Both the position numbers and the translations under genes were made by a program. A DNA stretch of 26,668 bases from a virus: positions 1 through 26,668 of IMG/VR virus record IMGVR_UViG_3300042981_000128. One strand, written 5' to 3'. Shown here one piece after another: positions 3,197-26,668 of this stretch (within the stretch, counting starts at the first letter, position 1; each line of letters starts with the position of its first letter). The notes under the pieces were generated by a model. The model saw nothing but the letters and a program-made list of their open reading frames with translations. It did not search any database and was not told where the DNA came from.

Positions 3197-4483
3197 ATGG
3201 CTGTTTCGCCTACCTCATTCGCAATCAACTGGCTGAACCGCTGGTACATGAAGCTGGACCGGGTCCACGCGGCCTCGATCAAGGGCTCCCCGTGGCTGAA
3301 GCGCGTCCGCTACGAAAACACCGGCGGTGAGGCTGTCGCTCAGCCGTTCGTGCTCTACGGGCACCGCGGCGAATCCGGAGACCTCGCGACCGCGCAGGGG
3401 ATCTCCGCCAACCAGAAGAGCTCTCGGAAGCTCCGCTGGCTCGTCCCCTACGGCTCCTACGAGGGCTCGATCCGCGTGCCCCACCGCGACATCGCGCTGT
3501 CCCGAAAGGACAAGGACGCTGCGGCCAAGGCCATGCAGTTTGACGTTGACCTGGCGCTGAAGCAGCGCGGGGCCAACATGGTCCGGCTCTGGTTCGCGAA
3601 CCCGGGCTACTCGCTGGTTGGCGCCGTGCGCGCGCACGCGGCGGGCGTGATCTCCGGCCTGACGGCGCAGGAAGCATCGAACTTCATCCCGGGCGATCAG
3701 ATCGTCCCGGCCACCACGAGCGGAAACAGCGCCTCGGACGTCCTCGTCCCCGGCTCTGGTGTCGGCTACGTCGTGAGCCGCGACCTGCGCGCGGGCACCG
3801 TCTCCGTCTCGGCCACGCCGGGCGGCACGGTCGGCGCTCCCGCGAACTGGGCCGCGACGAACTACTTCTACTTCCGCCAGGGTGAGTTCCTCCCGGCGTC
3901 GGGCGGCGCGATCGACATGATCACGCCTCTCCAGGCGTATCTCCCGCCCGCGCCCGTGACGAGCGTCCTCCACAACGTGGACCGGTCGATCGACTCGATC
4001 CTGTCGGGCTTCAACCCGCCGGATTCGAGCCTCACGGGCAAGTCGATCAGCGCCCGCGTGAAGCGCACGGTCAACGAGCACCGGGAACAGCTCGGCTACA
4101 TGGCCGAGGACTCGGAGCTGGACTGCGCCTACCTGAACCCGCTCGACTGGGGCAAGTGTGAGGAAGAGCTCACCACGCACCTTTCGCGCTCCCCGGCGCA
4201 GACGGCCGAGGACGGATACCAGTTCATCGAGCTCCAGACGGCCAACGGCAAGCTGAAGCTGATCAGCGAGCCCCAGGTTCCTCGCGGCGTGATCTTCCTG
4301 CTCAGCCAGAACGACATCGCCTGGCACACGCCCTCGGGCACCGTCGCAGAGATGGTGGACGAGGACGGCTCGATCGTCAGCCGCATGGCGAACAGCAACG
4401 ATCTGGAGCTCCGCCCGGTCTCCTACATCGCGGCCAAGATGTCCGCTCCCTACAAGCACTGCCGCCTTTCGGCCACGGTGTAA
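3197..4483 (+). CDS. Major capsid protein, HK97-fold candidate, 428 aa
   Basis: Probably the shell subunit of the procapsid. Length and pattern fit an HK97-fold coat: an N-terminal arm (residues 1-40), a basic segment, ISANQKSSRKLRWLVPYG and EGSIRVPHRDIALSRKDKD (an E-loop/P-domain-like region), a long helix ~112-135 (AAAKAMQFDVDLALKQRGANM), a beta-rich insertion with many Gly/Ser/Thr residues (~150-225), and a C-terminal A-domain-like part. There is no obvious prohead protease or delta-domain coiled coil, in keeping with a separate scaffold gene at 21176. It is the first gene after the late promoter and structured leader and is followed by a hairpin, typical of a very strongly expressed gene. 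The portal and scaffold lie 15 kb downstream, which is unusual. The assignment rests on pattern and context, not on a database match. Confidence 0.75.
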   Translation: MAVSPTSFAINWLNRWYMKLDRVHAASIKGSPWLKRVRYENTGGEAVAQPFVLYGHRGESGDLATAQGISANQKSSRKLRWLVPYGSYEGSIRVPHRDIALSRKDKDAAAKAMQFDVDLALKQRGANMVRLWFANPGYSLVGAVRAHAAGVISGLTAQEASNFIPGDQIVPATTSGNSASDVLVPGSGVGYVVSRDLRAGTVSVSATPGGTVGAPANWAATNYFYFRQGEFLPASGGAIDMITPLQAYLPPAPVTSVLHNVDRSIDSILSGFNPPDSSLTGKSISARVKRTVNEHREQLGYMAEDSELDCAYLNPLDWGKCEEELTTHLSRSPAQTAEDGYQFIELQTANGKLKLISEPQVPRGVIFLLSQNDIAWHTPSGTVAEMVDEDGSIVSRMANSNDLELRPVSYIAAKMSAPYKHCRLSATV

Positions 4484-19072: not shown

Positions 19073-20986
19073 ATGGTCCAGCGCAGCGCGCGCCTGTGCG
19101 CGGAACAGTGGTACAGGCTGAAAGGCGAGGACGCGGCACAGGCTCTGCTGTCGGAGTGTGCGCGTGCGATCCAGCTGAATAGCTCGCGGCGCGGGGAGGC
19201 GCTGCTTTTCGCCTCGTTGTTCGAGGGTGTCAATCTGCTGTCGTTCGACGAAAGCGGATATGAACACGACAACGACGAGGTTTTCGAGGAACTGGAGACG
19301 CCCGTGGTTCGCAACACGTGCCGCTCGATCGTCTCCACGGCCGTCTCCAAGATCACGGCGCAGGACAGCCCGCTCCCGCAGTTCATGAGCAACGGCGGGG
19401 ACTGGACGACCCGCACCAAGGCTGTCAGGCTCGACCGGCTCGTCTGCGCCGAATACGAGCAGCCCCAGGGCTGTTTCGCGAACCTCCACGAGCTCTTTCG
19501 GCACGGCGCCACGCTGGCCATGGCCGCGACCGGGAGCTTTGCCGTCTTCTACTTCTCGGGCCCGGACGGGCTGATCGCGGAGCTGGACGACACGCTGACG
19601 CTCGGGGTGGAGCGCTCGGGCCGCTGGGGCCGCGTGATCGGCACGGTACGCACCACATGGTACAACGCGGAGGAAGCAATCAGTCGGTGGCCCGACTTCG
19701 AGGACGAGATCCTGAAGAACGAGCAGAAGATGCCCGACGGGATCCGCGACCTGGAGGGAGACCTCACCCCGGAACGGGGCGTGCGCGTGTGCCAGGGCTG
19801 GCGTTCGGCCCTCGGCAAGAAACACTTTGGCCGGGAGATGTTCGTCCTGAAAGACGGGACGATCTTGAAAGACAACCGGAAGTATGACCGGCGCTCGCCA
19901 CCCATGGTGATCTGGGATTGGGAGCGGAGCCTGTATGGCCACTGGGGTGTTTCGCTCACGAGGACGATCTACAATCAGTGCGTCCGCATCAATCAGATCA
20001 TCGCTGATGTGGACTACGCGGAACACAACAGCCCCCAGGGCCTCGTCCTCCACAAGAAAGGCGCGACGGGCCCTGGCGACACGGACAAGGTCCGAGGCTG
20101 GCAGTTCGTGGAGATCACCGGCACGGCTGACATGGCCAGCGCGTTTCAGGTGGTCATGCCCCCGAAGTATAACGAGCAATCCGTGGAGCTCTTGCTTTTC
20201 CACGAGTCGGGCGCCCACGACATCTCCGGCGTGTCGGACCAGCACACCAGCGCCAAGCGCGCCGTGGGCACCACCAGCGGCAAGCACGAAAACATGGTGG
20301 CCGCGCTGTTCACGGAGCGTTTTGCCGACAATGAACGGCGGCTGATCGACTGCCGCACCACGAGCTCCGCGCGCGTGATCGTGTGGTGCCTCCAGGATCA
20401 GCTGAAGGAAGACCCGGAATACACGCGGATCTATGCGAAAGGCGATTATGTCGAGGAAGTCAAGCTGGCGGATCTGGACCTGGATCTTGATCGTTACACT
20501 GTTTCGATCGCCCCAGTGTCCGAGGACAAGCAGAGCCCGAAGGCGCGCCTGGAGCGCATGGATCAGGCCTTCGACGCTGGGCTGATTACCGGCTCGGAGC
20601 TTTTGAGCTTCCAGCAAGACTTCGACGCCAAGAGCCGCTCCAGTCTGGCCGTAGCACAAGACAACTGGCTGGAGCGTCAGATCGATAAGTGGATGCACGC
20701 CGATTCGATCGAGTATCAGGGACCGGTTCAGTGGATGGATCTCCAGAGCGCGGCGCGCATGGTCGCACAGGCGATGCTGATCGCCCGCACCAAGGGCCTA
20801 CCAGACGAGCGGCTGGGGTTCTTCACCCGCTTTCTTGACGAGGTCCAGAGTTTCATCGAAAGCACAGGGGCCAAGACCTCCGCACAGGGCGCAGTGGGCG
20901 CCGGCGCCGGGCCGAGCCCGGACGAGGCGCTGGCGGTCGCCGGCGTGCCTACTGCTGGAGCTCCGCCGACTGCCCCGATCGCTTGA
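19073..20986 (+). CDS. Portal protein, 637 aa
   Basis: Forms the dodecameric portal ring through which DNA enters and leaves the head. Features seen: N-terminal helical region, a core with strands around residues ~100-310 (FAVFYFSGPDGLIAELDD; TTWYNAEEAISRWPDFEDE; FVLKDGTILKDNRKYDRR), the segment PPMVIWDWERSLYGHWGVSLTRTIYNQCVRINQIIAD (~278-315) typical of podovirus portals where a wing/clip leads to a long helix, a long helix with Ala/Gln, and a disordered Ala/Gly/Pro-rich tail (~605-637). Length agrees with podovirus portals (500-750 aa). The neighbours (scaffold and terminase genes downstream) support the call. No strong ribosome site precedes the ATG; it is probably coupled to the gene ending 3 nt before. 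Confidence 0.8.
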   Translation: MVQRSARLCAEQWYRLKGEDAAQALLSECARAIQLNSSRRGEALLFASLFEGVNLLSFDESGYEHDNDEVFEELETPVVRNTCRSIVSTAVSKITAQDSPLPQFMSNGGDWTTRTKAVRLDRLVCAEYEQPQGCFANLHELFRHGATLAMAATGSFAVFYFSGPDGLIAELDDTLTLGVERSGRWGRVIGTVRTTWYNAEEAISRWPDFEDEILKNEQKMPDGIRDLEGDLTPERGVRVCQGWRSALGKKHFGREMFVLKDGTILKDNRKYDRRSPPMVIWDWERSLYGHWGVSLTRTIYNQCVRINQIIADVDYAEHNSPQGLVLHKKGATGPGDTDKVRGWQFVEITGTADMASAFQVVMPPKYNEQSVELLLFHESGAHDISGVSDQHTSAKRAVGTTSGKHENMVAALFTERFADNERRLIDCRTTSSARVIVWCLQDQLKEDPEYTRIYAKGDYVEEVKLADLDLDLDRYTVSIAPVSEDKQSPKARLERMDQAFDAGLITGSELLSFQQDFDAKSRSSLAVAQDNWLERQIDKWMHADSIEYQGPVQWMDLQSAARMVAQAMLIARTKGLPDERLGFFTRFLDEVQSFIESTGAKTSAQGAVGAGAGPSPDEALAVAGVPTAGAPPTAPIA

Positions 20987-21175: not shown

Positions 21176-22270
21176 ATGGCAGTGAAAGTAGACGCGGCAG
21201 CCGAGGCCGCAGAGTTCGCGGCGCTGGTTGCAGAGCTCGAAGCCCCCGAGGTCGACGAGGACTCGGACGACGATGGGGCCGCTCCGGAAGGTGATACGTC
21301 CACCGACCCGGAAGACGAGGACGAGGAAGAGCCCGAAGGCGACGAGGACGAGCCCGAAGGCGACGAGGAAGAGCCCGACGAGGACGACGAGCTGGAGGAC
21401 GAGGACGAGGACGAGGGCGAAGAGCTCACGGCGGACGAGGCGGCCGCCAAAAAGCTATTCGAGGCCGGGGACATCAAAGGCGCATGCAAGCGGCTCGGAG
21501 TCGACCCCAAGATCTTCAAGATCAACGCTCGCCAGTTCACGGCCATGCGCAAGGGCTTGGCGGACGCCACCAAACTCAGCCGGGAGGGAACGGCGGCCAA
21601 GACCCAGGCGGACAACCTGTGCCAGGCCGCGGAACAGACGTACGGGCCGATCGTCGCGGGCTTCCGGGCCTACAAGGACGGGAACCCGATGAACCTCCGT
21701 GCGGCGATCGAGCTGATGTGCGAGGACACCTTCGAAAACTTCGTGGCGACCGTGGCGCGCGCGGCCAAGGGCCTATCCCCCGAACAGGTCGAGATCGTGA
21801 AGCTCCGAAAGGAGATCCAGGATCGCGAGAACAAGGCCAAGGAAGACCAGACCAAGGCACAGGCCGAGGCCCAGAAGACGACCGAGGTTGCCCGCGTCTC
21901 CAAGCTCTTGAAAACCACCCCGCTGGCCAAGATCGACGGCGCGGCGGAAGAGATCTACGACCTGGTGGCCGCCAGCTTCGACGGCACGGGCTACGGCCTG
22001 ACCGTAAAGCAGGCGTACGCGCAGGTGAAGGCCAAGCACGCCAAGATCGCCGCGGCGTTCGGCGGCAAGCTCCCGGCGGCCGGCAAGGCTGGCAAGACGG
22101 GGAAGGCCGGCAAGCGCGAAGAGCTGGCGCCCGTGCGCAAGCCCGCGGCCCCGAAGACGGCGGCCGAGCGGGAGGCGGCCGAGGCGGCCGAGTTCGCAGA
22201 GGTCCTGAAACAGGCCAAGGAAGCAACCCGCGCCGGTGAGCGGCGCAACCGTCGGAAGGGAGGCCGCTAA
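21176..22270 (+). CDS. Probable scaffolding protein, 364 aa
   Basis: Guides coat assembly into a procapsid. The N-terminal ~85 residues are extremely acidic (residues 22-84, with the near-repeats EPEGDED and EPEGDEE), the middle is mixed helical with Lys/Glu/Gln (residues ~190-240, typical coiled-coil composition: KLRKEIQDRENKAKEDQTKA), and the end is basic (EATRAGERRNRRKGGR). Acidic helical body plus basic coat-binding C-terminus is the known design of P22-type scaffolds. Good ribosome site GGGAG 7 nt before ATG. Location between portal and the GroES-like gene fits. A head-maturation protein is the alternative. TAATG overlap with the next gene. Confidence 0.7.
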   Translation: MAVKVDAAAEAAEFAALVAELEAPEVDEDSDDDGAAPEGDTSTDPEDEDEEEPEGDEDEPEGDEEEPDEDDELEDEDEDEGEELTADEAAAKKLFEAGDIKGACKRLGVDPKIFKINARQFTAMRKGLADATKLSREGTAAKTQADNLCQAAEQTYGPIVAGFRAYKDGNPMNLRAAIELMCEDTFENFVATVARAAKGLSPEQVEIVKLRKEIQDRENKAKEDQTKAQAEAQKTTEVARVSKLLKTTPLAKIDGAAEEIYDLVAASFDGTGYGLTVKQAYAQVKAKHAKIAAAFGGKLPAAGKAGKTGKAGKREELAPVRKPAAPKTAAEREAAEAAEFAEVLKQAKEATRAGERRNRRKGGR

Positions 22271-22974
22271 TGGGCCAGGTGTGCGCGTATGAAGACATGG
22301 TCTATCTCCGCCCGCGGGAGGACCTGGATCGAAAGTGGGCCTCGGACACGATCTTTGCGCCCGACTCCGCGCTGACAAGCTCCGACAGTATGAACCTGTC
22401 GGACAAGAGCGCAACGGCCGTGTGTGAGGTGATCTCGATCGGGCCCGGCTCCGAGTCGTGCCCCGACCTGAAAGGCGTCTCCGTGGGGGACGTCGTGGCG
22501 CTGCCGCTGTGGAGCGCCAGCAAGGTGATCGTGCTGGACAAGGAGATCGGCCTCATGATCAAGTTCAGCGGCTTGGCCGGCGTCGTCCGAGACCTCGGCA
22601 AGCCCACGGAGTCGATCGAGGCGATCAACGATTACGTGCTGACGCGCCAGGACCGAGACGCCTTCGAAAAGCACATGCACGGCGGGCTCCCCATGCCGGA
22701 ACAGTATCTCTCGGAGGGCTTCCCCGTCGACAGCGGCACGGACGGGATCGTCCGGGTCTGCCTGGAGCGTGTCATGCACGCGGGTGGCGGCCACTGGGAG
22801 ACGGACAAGCACGGGCGCGTGAAGCTGAACCCGCGGCTTTGGAAGCCTCGCCAGAAGCGCGGGGAGCTCGTGGGCTTCAACCCGCTCGCCTCTTGCCGCT
22901 TCCGGCGCCATGGCCAGTTTTTCCGGCTCGTGCCGTTCGAGGACATCCAGTTCGGCTTCGACCCGGAGGCCTAA
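22270..22974 (+). CDS. Tandem GroES-like co-chaperonin candidate, 234 aa
   Basis: The sequence reads as two GroES folds head to tail. Domain 1 (~8-106): MVYLRPREDLDRK (like the start of GroES), a Ser/Asp-rich mobile-loop region with SDTIFAP, then VCEVISIGPG and GVSVGDVVALP, ending IVLDKEIGLMIKF. Domain 2 (~118-232): NDYVLTRQDRD, a loop with GGLPMPEQ, GIVRVCLERV, then GELVGFNPLASCRFRRHG and FRLVPFEDIQF, which follows the GroES C-terminal pattern. GroES is ~97 aa, and two copies plus linker fit 234. It would cap a chaperonin during coat folding, as T4 gp31 or RB49 CocO do for the capsid protein. Its place between scaffold and terminase supports a head-assembly role. Coupled start (TAATG, GGAGG upstream). 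Confidence 0.65.
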   Translation: MGQVCAYEDMVYLRPREDLDRKWASDTIFAPDSALTSSDSMNLSDKSATAVCEVISIGPGSESCPDLKGVSVGDVVALPLWSASKVIVLDKEIGLMIKFSGLAGVVRDLGKPTESIEAINDYVLTRQDRDAFEKHMHGGLPMPEQYLSEGFPVDSGTDGIVRVCLERVMHAGGGHWETDKHGRVKLNPRLWKPRQKRGELVGFNPLASCRFRRHGQFFRLVPFEDIQFGFDPEA

Positions 22975-23607
22975 GTGGCGATCCAGAAGTTCGCAAACGG
23001 CGGGCTTCGGAAAAACGCGGGAGACCTCACCCCAGAGCTGGCCAAGCGGATCGTGGCCGCCGTGCGCAAGACGCCTCTCAGTCTGAACGCGGCGGCCAAG
23101 GCCGTGGCCATTCACCCGTCCGAGCTCCGTTACATTGTAAAGCGTGGATCGTTGCCCGGGGCTGACCCGCTCTGGGTGGACACGTCCGTCCGCATTCGGG
23201 AGCTGATCGCCGCAGCCGAGGCGCGGAACTTCCGCCGGCTCGAACGCGCGGCCACGGGCGGGGTGGTCGCAGAACGGGTGCTCCGCCCCGATCCGGACGT
23301 CCCCGGCGCAGAGCCGCGCCTGGTGGAGATCAAGGAAAAGGTAGTGCCGGCCAACGTATCAGCGCAGAGCGAGATCCAGCGCATGATCGAGGCCGACCCG
23401 TGGAAGGTGGACCCTGGAGCCGAGGACGCGCCGATCGTCTACATGGATCTCTTTTCGAGGCCGAACGAGCTCCCGCCGGAGATCTTGGAGGCCCTTCTAG
23501 CGAACGGCTGGACGCATGCTTCACTCAGCAATCAACAGCTCGGTCTCCAGGCAGGCGGGGAGCAGCAACCCGCGCTTGCTGATGCGGGCAAGCCAGCTCC
23601 AGCGTAA
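22975..23607 (+). CDS. Small terminase subunit candidate, 210 aa
   Basis: Would recognise the packaging site and recruit the large subunit. Residues ~33-60 (PLSLNAAAKAVAIHPSELRYIVKRG) look like a helix-turn-helix, preceded by a helix starting DLTPELAKRIVAAVRK, then helical oligomerisation stretches (VRIRELIAAAEARNFRRLE) and a flexible Gln/Ala/Pro-rich tail. This layout (N-terminal HTH, coiled oligomerisation core, disordered tail) fits TerS proteins. GTG at 22975 follows the previous TAA with no gap; no ATG nearby is better. The adjacent large terminase overlaps its 3' end by 26 bp. Assigned from HTH plus position, not from a strong family motif. Confidence 0.6.
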   Translation: MAIQKFANGGLRKNAGDLTPELAKRIVAAVRKTPLSLNAAAKAVAIHPSELRYIVKRGSLPGADPLWVDTSVRIRELIAAAEARNFRRLERAATGGVVAERVLRPDPDVPGAEPRLVEIKEKVVPANVSAQSEIQRMIEADPWKVDPGAEDAPIVYMDLFSRPNELPPEILEALLANGWTHASLSNQQLGLQAGGEQQPALADAGKPAPA

Positions 23608-24997
23608 CTACATTCGCGACCGGTCGGCGCTGATCACGTATCTCGCCGGCCGGCGTCACGGCAAAACCGAGGCCGTGGCTACTCGGATGGTGGAGAACGC
23701 GCGGCCGGGGACCATGCAGGCGTATGTTGCGCCCACGATCACCCGCGCCGGGGAGATCCTGCTCCCCATCCTGCGCCAGCTCCAGCGCGACTGCGGGCTC
23801 CAGTTCCGGCACGTCGGGGACACGGTCACATTCCCCAGCGGCGGCTCCGTGCGCCTCATGGGCATGAGCAACACGGCCGAGATCCAGAAGCTCCGCGGCG
23901 AAGACCTCCTGGCCGCCTACTTTGATGAGTGCGGCGTGCCTAAGTCGGCCCTCCTGAAAGAGGCCGTAATCTCGTGCGCGTGGGAGGCCCTACGGAGGCA
24001 TCGCGGCGAGCCGGGCTCGGGCGTCAGCTTGTCGGGCACACCCGGCCCTGTGCCAGGGAACAACGCTGAATCGGAGCCTGACTTCTGGTGGCAGTGCACG
24101 ACCCAGGCCGGAGCCGACGGGCGGCCCATGTATGGCGCCAGTCGTCACTTCGGGCTGATCTATGATAACCCGATCTTCCAGACGCCCGTCCTCTACAAGG
24201 GCCAGCGCATGACTAAGGCCGAGGCCTCGATCCTAGAGGACCTCGAAAACAAGCTCTACATCTCGCGCGAGGACAGCCGTTTCCGCCGCGAGGTCTTGGC
24301 GCAATGGTGCCTCCCGTCCGAGCTCCGTTGCTACTCCAGCTTCGGCAAGATCATTCTCCCGCAGAGCTCCGCGCCGTGGGGCGGCCGCTGTGTCATGGCC
24401 GTTGACTTCGGCTGGCACGACCACACCGCGATCGTGATCCTGCGGCTTGTGCCGTTCGAGGAACGATATCCCCAGCCGGACGGCTCGGTCAACGTCCTGA
24501 AAGGCGAGCGGGTCCACGTCGTCTACGCCACCAAGCGCCAGCACTGGCCGCTAGACAAGCTGGCGGAGAAGATCCGGGAGCTCCAGGTCCTCTACAGCAT
24601 CGGGACGATCGTGGGCGACTCCGGAGGCGGCGCGTCGCTCCAGGTGGTGGAGAGCTTTGCCGGCTCGTTCGGCGTCCCCATGCTGCCGGCGCAGAAGTCG
24701 GGAATGGGCGTCAAGCGCGCCCGCATTCACACAATCAACGACCTGTTCGCGATCGGGCATATCTTCGTCTACGAGGACGCGGCGTGCCTCGGGGAAGAGC
24801 TGGGCTACCTCGTGTGGAACGAGGACCGAGACGATCACGACGATCGCCAGGCAGACCACTGCGCCGATGCTTTCGGCTATGGCATAATCGAGACGTACAT
24901 TCCGGTCACCCAGGAACGAATCGCCAGCCAGGCCGAGCGCGAAAAAGAAGCCGCGGCCCAGCGCAAACGAGATGCTCTGAACCGCGGCCGACGTTGA
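23582..24997 (+). CDS. terL: Large terminase subunit, 471 aa
   Basis: ATP-driven DNA packaging motor and headful nuclease. ATPase: Walker A AGRRHGKT (22-29, Lys28), Walker B with AAYFDE (Asp115, Glu116) and motif III SGT (151-153). Nuclease: VMAVDFGWHD (Asp275), IVGDSGGG (Asp346), and the Asp-rich DDHDDRQADHCADA (Asp425 or Asp429), as in RNase-H-like terminase nucleases. ATG 23582 is chosen because it puts Walker A about 22 residues from the start, as is common; an ATG at 23516 would add 22 residues of unlikely sequence. No strong ribosome site, so it is probably coupled to the overlapping TerS gene. The basic C-terminus (REKEAAAQRKRDALNRGRR) suits portal or DNA binding. Confidence 0.9.
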   Translation: MRASQLQRNYIRDRSALITYLAGRRHGKTEAVATRMVENARPGTMQAYVAPTITRAGEILLPILRQLQRDCGLQFRHVGDTVTFPSGGSVRLMGMSNTAEIQKLRGEDLLAAYFDECGVPKSALLKEAVISCAWEALRRHRGEPGSGVSLSGTPGPVPGNNAESEPDFWWQCTTQAGADGRPMYGASRHFGLIYDNPIFQTPVLYKGQRMTKAEASILEDLENKLYISREDSRFRREVLAQWCLPSELRCYSSFGKIILPQSSAPWGGRCVMAVDFGWHDHTAIVILRLVPFEERYPQPDGSVNVLKGERVHVVYATKRQHWPLDKLAEKIRELQVLYSIGTIVGDSGGGASLQVVESFAGSFGVPMLPAQKSGMGVKRARIHTINDLFAIGHIFVYEDAACLGEELGYLVWNEDRDDHDDRQADHCADAFGYGIIETYIPVTQERIASQAEREKEAAAQRKRDALNRGRR

Positions 24998-25296: not shown

Positions 25297-26190
25297 TCAG
25301 TAACCTAACACACGCAGCAAAGGACGCAAGCCAGATCGTCCGTCTGCGAAAACTGGAATGTTTAGGTGGGTGAAGCGGCCGTCCGACTCCACGAACTCGA
25401 ACGCGAATCCGTGACTCCAGCTGGTGGGGCTGGTGTGCCGGTAGAGCGGCTGGAGCTTGGCCAGGGTTCCTGGACACCACGCGCCCTGTGCGGAGCTCGT
25501 GGCTGTTCTGCTGACGGTGCTCTGGGCTCGGTGCGTGTGGCCGTGGACCACGTTGTCCCCGACCCGTTCGAGATGGGTCGCGGCCGCGTTTTTCGAGTGG
25601 GCGAACCCATGGGTGAAGAACACCCGCCCGAGCTTGATTGTCCCGGGGACCGTCAGCCCCATGTGGAGCTGGCTGGCGCGGTAGTAGCGAATGTCCAGCT
25701 CGTCCAGCTTCAGCACGTTCCGTGGCCCGATCAGATCCAACAGAAACTCCGCATCTCGAAAGCTCGAAAAACTCCGAGCCAAGAAACGCTCCACGTGCGC
25801 CTCGTGGTTCCCCTCCAGGTAGTGGTGGGCCGCGCACGGGGTGCGCTCCCGGATCATCCGGATCAGGCGGCCCGCCGCGGCCACGTCCGCCGCGTAGCTC
25901 TCGGTGAGCTCGTGTGTGTAGTTCCGCTGGTGGGCGTTGAACGTGCCGCCACAGTCCAGGTGGTCCCCGAGCCAAACGACTTCCTTGATCTCGGGGGAGA
26001 GCTTTTCCACGTCTCGGACCATGGCGTTCGCGGCTTGCCAATCGATGTGCTCCCCGTGGGTGTCGGGGACGATCAGCCTAACGAACGCGCCGGCGGGGTG
26101 GAGGGCTGCCTCCACCGGCACGTCCACCGGCGTACGACCGACGGAAGGCCGAGCGTGGAGCTGGCGGACAATAGCTTCAAGCGTTTGCAA
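25297..26190 (-). CDS. Calcineurin-like metallophosphoesterase, 297 aa
   Basis: All motifs of the two-metal phosphoesterase fold are visible: PDTHG (Asp43, His45), WLGDHLD (Asp76, Asp79), EGNHE (Asn128, His129), FFTHG (His194) and HGHTH (His218, His220). Substrate is unknown; family members act on phosphodiesters in nucleic acids, nucleotides or proteins. TTG 26190 is preferred as start because GGAGGG lies 7 nt upstream; a GTG at 26205 would add 5 residues with no ribosome site. It overlaps the resolvase gene by 14 bp, forming a leftward operon. Phage metallophosphoesterases near recombination genes may process DNA ends or RNA, which is only an inference. Confidence 0.85.
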   Translation of the reverse strand: MQTLEAIVRQLHARPSVGRTPVDVPVEAALHPAGAFVRLIVPDTHGEHIDWQAANAMVRDVEKLSPEIKEVVWLGDHLDCGGTFNAHQRNYTHELTESYAADVAAAGRLIRMIRERTPCAAHHYLEGNHEAHVERFLARSFSSFRDAEFLLDLIGPRNVLKLDELDIRYYRASQLHMGLTVPGTIKLGRVFFTHGFAHSKNAAATHLERVGDNVVHGHTHRAQSTVSRTATSSAQGAWCPGTLAKLQPLYRHTSPTSWSHGFAFEFVESDGRFTHLNIPVFADGRSGLRPLLRVLGY

Positions 26191-26668
26191 AGCAGAGCCC
26201 TCCACGATCGGCCATCATCGAGTTGAGAATGCACATAGCGTCTGTGACGTCGAGGGAGAGACCCTCAGGCGCGCCGGCGGCCACCAGCGCGCGTTTGACG
26301 GCCTTTTTCGCCTCGTCGCCCTTCCGGGGGACCTTGCCGAGCAAGAGCTTTCGGGCGGAGCTCTGGTTCACCGTCTCCACCACCTTGGCGTAGTCCAGCA
26401 GGCGGAGCTTCAGCGCGCCCACGAGCTCCACCACGTGCGTGTCGGGGTTGGCGGAAAAGCCGTAGCTCTCGAAGCCAACCACGTCCGGGTTCACCTCGCA
26501 GATCGCGCCGTCCACGAGCCGGAACAGCCGGCGCAGCCGGTACAGCGCGCCTTCCGCATCGCCCTTGGAGACCTGGCCGCCGTCGAATCGTCCAGTGACG
26601 ACCTTGGACCAGTCCCCGCCCCAGAACGTGGGGGCCGCCGCATAGGCGAAACCCCGCACGCTCTGATC
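26177..26668 (-). CDS. RuvC-like Holliday-junction resolvase (partial, runs off right edge)
   Basis: The frame stays open to the right edge; its first visible codons give DQSVRGFAYA, like the GIDQSLxxTGFA start of RuvC-like nucleases, so Asp at the edge is probably the first catalytic residue and the true start lies outside. A GTG at 26659 is therefore not the start. Counting from that Asp: Glu67 in VVGFESYG, the helix VNQSSARKLLLGKVPRKGDE, KKAVKRAL, then LSLDVTDAMCILNSMM with Asp140/Asp143, the usual RuvC D-x-x-D ending. Such enzymes resolve branched DNA so that it can be packaged. It overlaps the phosphoesterase gene downstream. Confidence 0.75.
   Translation of the reverse strand, partial: DQSVRGFAYAAAPTFWGGDWSKVVTGRFDGGQVSKGDAEGALYRLRRLFRLVDGAICEVNPDVVGFESYGFSANPDTHVVELVGALKLRLLDYAKVVETVNQSSARKLLLGKVPRKGDEAKKAVKRALVAAGAPEGLSLDVTDAMCILNSMMADRGGLCFANA

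Follow-up and report, generated by a model that had tools for sequence, protein, structure and literature searches.

The window analysed here, a virus record of 26,668 bases that is probably a fragment, carries on its forward strand at 22270..22974 a gene whose product of 234 amino acids reads, by profile and homologue comparison, as two GroES domains joined head to tail. We consider it likely, with a probability of about 0.7, that this protein is a tandem GroES co-chaperonin of GroEL which is produced with the head and packaging proteins and acts on head proteins. The open reading frame extends from an ATG at 22270 to a TAA at 22972-22974 and is supported by a Pfam Cpn10 match, the family alignment, profile comparisons and a dN/dS of 0.11. 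Domain 1 (residues 1-110; 22270..22599, +), assigned by hhalign to GroES and by PDB entry 8wuw, has a shortened roof hairpin. Domain 2 (residues 111-234; 22600..22971, +), assigned by hhalign with a shuffle null and by the model of a homologue, has an enlarged roof at about residues 173-195. A preliminary description had proposed two GroES folds head to tail for this reading frame, and the profiles of both halves bear this out. The GroES motifs quoted there are all present in the protein. The first half contains TIFAPDSA (residues 27-34), EVISIGPG (53-60) and SVGDVVALP (71-79), and the second half contains GGLPMPE (138-144), LERVMHAGGG (165-174), RGELVGFNP (197-205) and FEDIQF (223-228). The FEDI-like end that had been described for both halves is found in the second, whereas the first half ends in FSGLAGVV.

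The position of the gene between scaffold and terminase genes, also part of that description, was recovered in our analysis. Directly upstream lies the gene for a scaffold-like acidic protein (21176..22270, +), which was assigned from its acidic composition and from a weak homologue in L043 that sits between portal and capsid-like genes. Its stop codon overlaps the start of the tandem GroES gene in a TAATG junction, which is also present in L001, L005, L006, L018 and L019. Downstream, a TAAGTG junction places the stop of the tandem GroES gene next to the start of the gene for the probable small terminase subunit (22975..23607, +; phrog_4102, terminase small subunit, E 0.005), and the large terminase subunit follows (23516..24997, +; Pfam Terminase_6N, E 1.9e-7; phrog_2, E 2.7e-20). 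A portal-like protein (19073..20986, +) was assigned from its position, size and conservation; Pfam and PHROGs give no confident family match for either this protein or the scaffold-like one. In comparison to the 91% identical relative in L001, the tandem GroES gene has a dN/dS of 0.109 (0.157 for the N half and 0.076 for the C half), and the same pair gives 0.120 for the portal-like gene and 0.086 for the large terminase; the tandem GroES gene is under purifying selection. Elsewhere in the window, a probable major capsid protein (3197-4483; phrog_14242, E 1.9e-4) is encoded some 15 kb away from the gene for the portal-like protein, and a metallophosphoesterase (25297-26205, -) and a RuvC-like resolvase (26177-26668, -) are present beyond the terminase. 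Searching 50,697 phage records by tblastn with the large terminase and portal-like proteins gave zero matches, suggesting that the phage group of the window has no close isolate among those records.

Relatives of the protein fall into three groups. Group A comprises the window, L001 and L005/L006 (about 50% identity to the window protein), group B comprises L007/L008, L018, L019 and L039 (25-28%), and group C comprises L044, L045 and L055 (20-24% for L044 and L045). Since L005/L006 and L007/L008 are near-identical record pairs, these amount to ten non-redundant contigs including the window. In the complete neighbourhoods the gene order is portal-like, scaffold-like, tandem GroES, small terminase and large terminase; group C has an additional stretch between the tandem GroES and the small terminase, and homology gave no identification of a scaffold in this group. 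A probable, more distant member of the family is encoded at L048:1899-2627 (-). The E-values are 9.6e-7 for its C half against the C domain of the family and 7e-4 for its N half against GroES, and domain 1 shows an evident SGLFLP loop. This gene immediately precedes a small-terminase-like gene on the strand of the portal; the large terminase is encoded on the complementary strand. No match was found by tblastn in the phages collection with the window, L018 and L045 proteins, or in plasmids with the L018 protein. Pattern scans with two alignments over 84,980 GTDB genomes found no relative, but such scans detect only short conserved peptides and bacterial or prophage copies may therefore exist.

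The first half belongs to the family PF00166. Pfam Cpn10 gives 21.9 bits on the whole protein, covering residues 45-102, against a cut-off of 21.1, and 18.0 bits on the N half alone. Cpn10 is matched by all seven of the family members found first (best E 6e-7), and a Cpn10 profile search with L055 and with L048 alone gave no match. In the NCBIfam search, the window protein has no match while other members match GroES models. In profile comparisons, the N half aligns by hhalign with an alignment of eight GroES sequences at E 3.3e-13 (probability 97.9), and residues 1-106 of the family profile find the PDB GroES 8wuw with an E-value of 1.8e-5.

The second half alone has no family match in Pfam, PHROGs or NCBIfam. 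Such a result is what would be expected if only the first half were GroES and the second half were an unrelated domain resembling it by chance, an explanation we regard as very improbable. The profiles built without group C agree with it to the extent that they reach only E 0.002-0.013 against GroES; the one from seven close members gives E 0.0021, in register, with GGLPMPE on GGI-L-P. On addition of L039, L044 and L045, the C-half profile matches GroES over its full length at E 3.6e-7 (probability 92.9), with positions 3-98 aligned in register on 4-130, and it matches the N half at E 2e-7. The separate comparison of the two halves with GroES, as the preliminary description had recommended, thus gives a match for each. 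Because the hhalign E-values cover one pairwise comparison each, both for half against GroES and for half against half, shuffle controls were run. The real scores were 43.6 (GroES) and 44.9 (N half), compared to 16.4 and 19.4 for the best of 100 column shuffles each and 10.7 and 13.2 for reversed profiles, while control families gave E 0.71 (small terminase) and E 0.44 (scaffold-like). The enlarged profile together with its shuffle control argues against a chance resemblance. With an HMM of the window-type C half, the L045 protein is matched in the C half at E 6e-5. The C halves of group C in turn align by hhalign with the window-type C halves at E 4.3e-6, and they match domain 1 of groups A and B (E 4.5e-6) as well as GroES (E 3.6e-6). 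At the level of profiles, the window-type second half is thus tied to the distant members independently of the first half. One other candidate, ADP-dependent glucokinase, was matched by a C-half profile at E 0.03 and fell to E 0.37 with more sequences, as GroES rose to E 8e-4.

Structure prediction for the window protein itself from 7 sequences reached a pLDDT of 42.4 and the AlphaFold model was set aside. The prediction for the L045 protein, from eleven sequences with L045 first, reached a pLDDT of 70.5 and a pTM of 0.68, and consists of two barrels with two disordered loops. Confidence is low at residues 38-53 (pLDDT<50), 71-74 and 147-169, and the stretches 38-53 and 147-169 are the positions of the two mobile loops. 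Foldseek of this model against the PDB ranks chains Q and R of 7ekq best (E 1e-7 and 5e-7; 257 and 245 columns aligned), followed by Cpn10/GroES entries and T4 gp31. Chain P of the same entry is named Chaperonin 11, and the Chlamydomonas ClpPR structure bears a CPN11/CPN20/CPN23 heterotetramer (PMC8889267); judging from these and the chain lengths, CPN20 and CPN23 are the most likely identities of chains Q and R. Superposition of the model on 7ekq_R by VIA-align 2 gives a Z of 11.5 for 176 residues within model residues 15-254, with an rmsd of 4.8 across both domains, so that the orientation of the domains is not settled. The second domain (residues 122-253) superposes on 8wuw_a with a Z of 7.8 over 89 residues at 30% identity which, together with the 257-column match to a two-domain co-chaperonin, is further at odds with a chance resemblance of the second half. 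Domain 1 compares with gp31 (1g31) at Z 8.3. Alcohol dehydrogenase-type proteins, which also have a GroES-like fold, matched the model more poorly (Z up to 5.9). The modelled protein and that of the window share 20-24% identity, and the fold of the latter is inferred by homology. Domain 2 is likewise placed in PF00166 by the family profile and the homologue model, where Pfam searches with single sequences miss it. Host takeover genes are usually found elsewhere in phage genomes, and the structural position of this gene therefore counts against the quite improbable idea of a decoy or regulator lid that blocks the host GroEL-GroES or a sevenfold machine such as ClpP. Such a lid would suit the best structural match, a chloroplast co-chaperonin cap solved on a ClpP core (PMC8889267).

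The mobile-loop-like motif of domain 1, TIFAPDSA (22348..22371, +), was located from the sequence and alignments and compares with SGIIIPDTA in GroES 8wuw. That of domain 2, GGLPMPE (22681..22701, +), falls by hhalign onto the GGI-hydrophobic motif of GroES (compare GGIVL). The window protein has a proline inside the tripeptide of loop 2 (LPM), and L005 has GGLLLPE in this place. In group B, loops of the LVLPD/IILPQ type occur in domain 2 and the PD motif has been lost from domain 1; in group C, domain 1 carries GIKLD, and the loop of domain 2 is degraded and has lost the hydrophobic tripeptide. In the alignments, one loop per subunit thus seems to be consistently GroES-like and which one varies. 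Since the mobile loops vary between the subgroups, not every domain need bind GroEL. The roof region is short in domain 1 and long in domain 2. The domain 2 roof insertion of group B carries a CxxC (CARC, CACC, CAKC) in L007, L018, L019 and L039, which may be a metal site. The weak match of Pfam Gin at this region (E 0.03 at best) and that of PHROG 931 (head morphogenesis, E 0.41) were judged to be due to chance or to an effect of the CxxC.

The main rival explanation, which we regard as unlikely, is that the tandem GroES fold now serves as a ring in head assembly (portal- or scaffold-associated, or for head completion) that acts independently of GroEL. Six tandem subunits would provide twelve domains, in agreement with the symmetry of the portal. 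Such a ring would also be in keeping with the slot that the gene occupies between the portal/scaffold-like genes and those of the terminase, which is constant in the complete neighbourhoods, with its overlap with the scaffold-like gene, with the altered roof regions and with the loop motifs that are not kept in all domains. It fits less well with the retention of the hydrophobic mobile-loop motif in at least one domain of every subgroup. The reading that we find best supported is that of a co-chaperonin which would work with the GroEL of the host on at least one head protein, in analogy to gp31 (PMC3012670) and Pf-cpn20 (PMC3542282). As such a co-chaperonin, the subunits would form rings with six to eight GroES domains each, and these would sit on the host GroEL via their mobile loops and replace the host GroES. 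The changed roof may then adapt the chamber, or its choice of substrate, to at least one phage head protein such as capsid, portal or scaffold. Cpn60 was not found in ten of these phage records, none of which is known to be complete; as the records are fragments, its absence is weak evidence.

It is possible, though we hold this rather tentatively, that the family belongs to a widespread and unrecognised class of phage double lids, separate from plastid Cpn20, with unequal domains of which one keeps a GroEL-binding loop and the other is modified, and which would act as an even-numbered lid on the sevenfold GroEL or as a GroEL-free ring in head assembly. For the plastid tandem co-chaperonins, it is under debate how an even number of lid domains fits the sevenfold ring of GroEL (PMC5780408). 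The phage family has the same layout within a head-assembly block and would offer a bacterial system in which the mismatch could be studied with E. coli GroEL, and in which the reason for phage-borne lids could also be addressed. The present case also indicates that profile annotation can overlook half of a tandem GroES protein.

Chloroplasts and apicoplasts are known to have tandem co-chaperonins, and the size of the plastid ring is debated, either as a tetramer with eight domains or as hetero-oligomers with seven (PMC5780408, PMC3542282). The likeness to Cpn20 (Cpn21, Chlamydomonas CPN20/CPN23) claimed in the preliminary description holds: two GroES-like domains lie head to tail in one chain, as judged from the structure of the L045 homologue, whose best PDB match over both domains is 7ekq. 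In contrast to Cpn20, the phage gene is present in a head and packaging block, identity is only about 15-18%, and the roof is short in domain 1 and long in domain 2. In a related phage, a single-domain GroES that scores 41 bits with Pfam (L042:1047-1475) lies upstream of a related large terminase (29%), which is possibly the state before duplication. The tandem gene would then have arisen by duplication of a resident GroES gene, and the presence of the single-domain form in a related phage suggests that this happened independently of plastid Cpn20.

With T4 gp31 and RB49 CocO the protein shares the GroES fold and the role proposed here, but these are single-domain proteins in a different genome context. 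Both gp31 and CocO replace GroES, and folding of gp23 needs gp31 (PMC3012670); Pf-cpn20 substitutes for GroES in E. coli (PMC3542282). The claim that phage co-chaperonins are single-domain is contradicted by at least ten non-redundant contigs, the window included, and by gp096 of Cellulophaga phage phi18:3, which also looks tandem. This protein (cpn10, 200 aa, PHROG 13932; L063:41458-42060) is one of four viral proteins of 183-304 aa matched by the L045 model in Foldseek over 235-257 columns, and its gene stands one gene away from that of the large terminase, after which comes the portal. Pfam Cpn10 matches its second half; the first half has a GroES-like sequence (ESGLEL, KIGDTLFID) but is weak by profile. 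It is annotated simply as co-chaperonin GroES, with the two domains unmentioned, and a literature search short of most subscription papers brought up no account of a phage co-chaperonin in tandem form. We consider gp096 and its kin in isolated Cellulophaga phages as probable tandem GroES proteins close to large terminase and portal, so the tandem arrangement is neither unique in phages nor new to databases. Profile comparison of gp096 with the window family gave no convincing sequence match. Moreover, phi18:3 has a separate single-domain GroES, gp080 (L063:31108-31362). The annotation of gp096 cites similarity alone, whereas for gp085-087 and the portal detection by MS/MS proteomics is recorded, which weakly argues against a part of the virion and hence against the head-assembly ring. 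Pseudoalteromonas phage B8b and Shewanella phage 1/44 resemble the window in having a GroES gene among structural genes, in late operons; their GroES differs in being single-domain, and that of Shewanella phage 1/44 adjoins tail genes.
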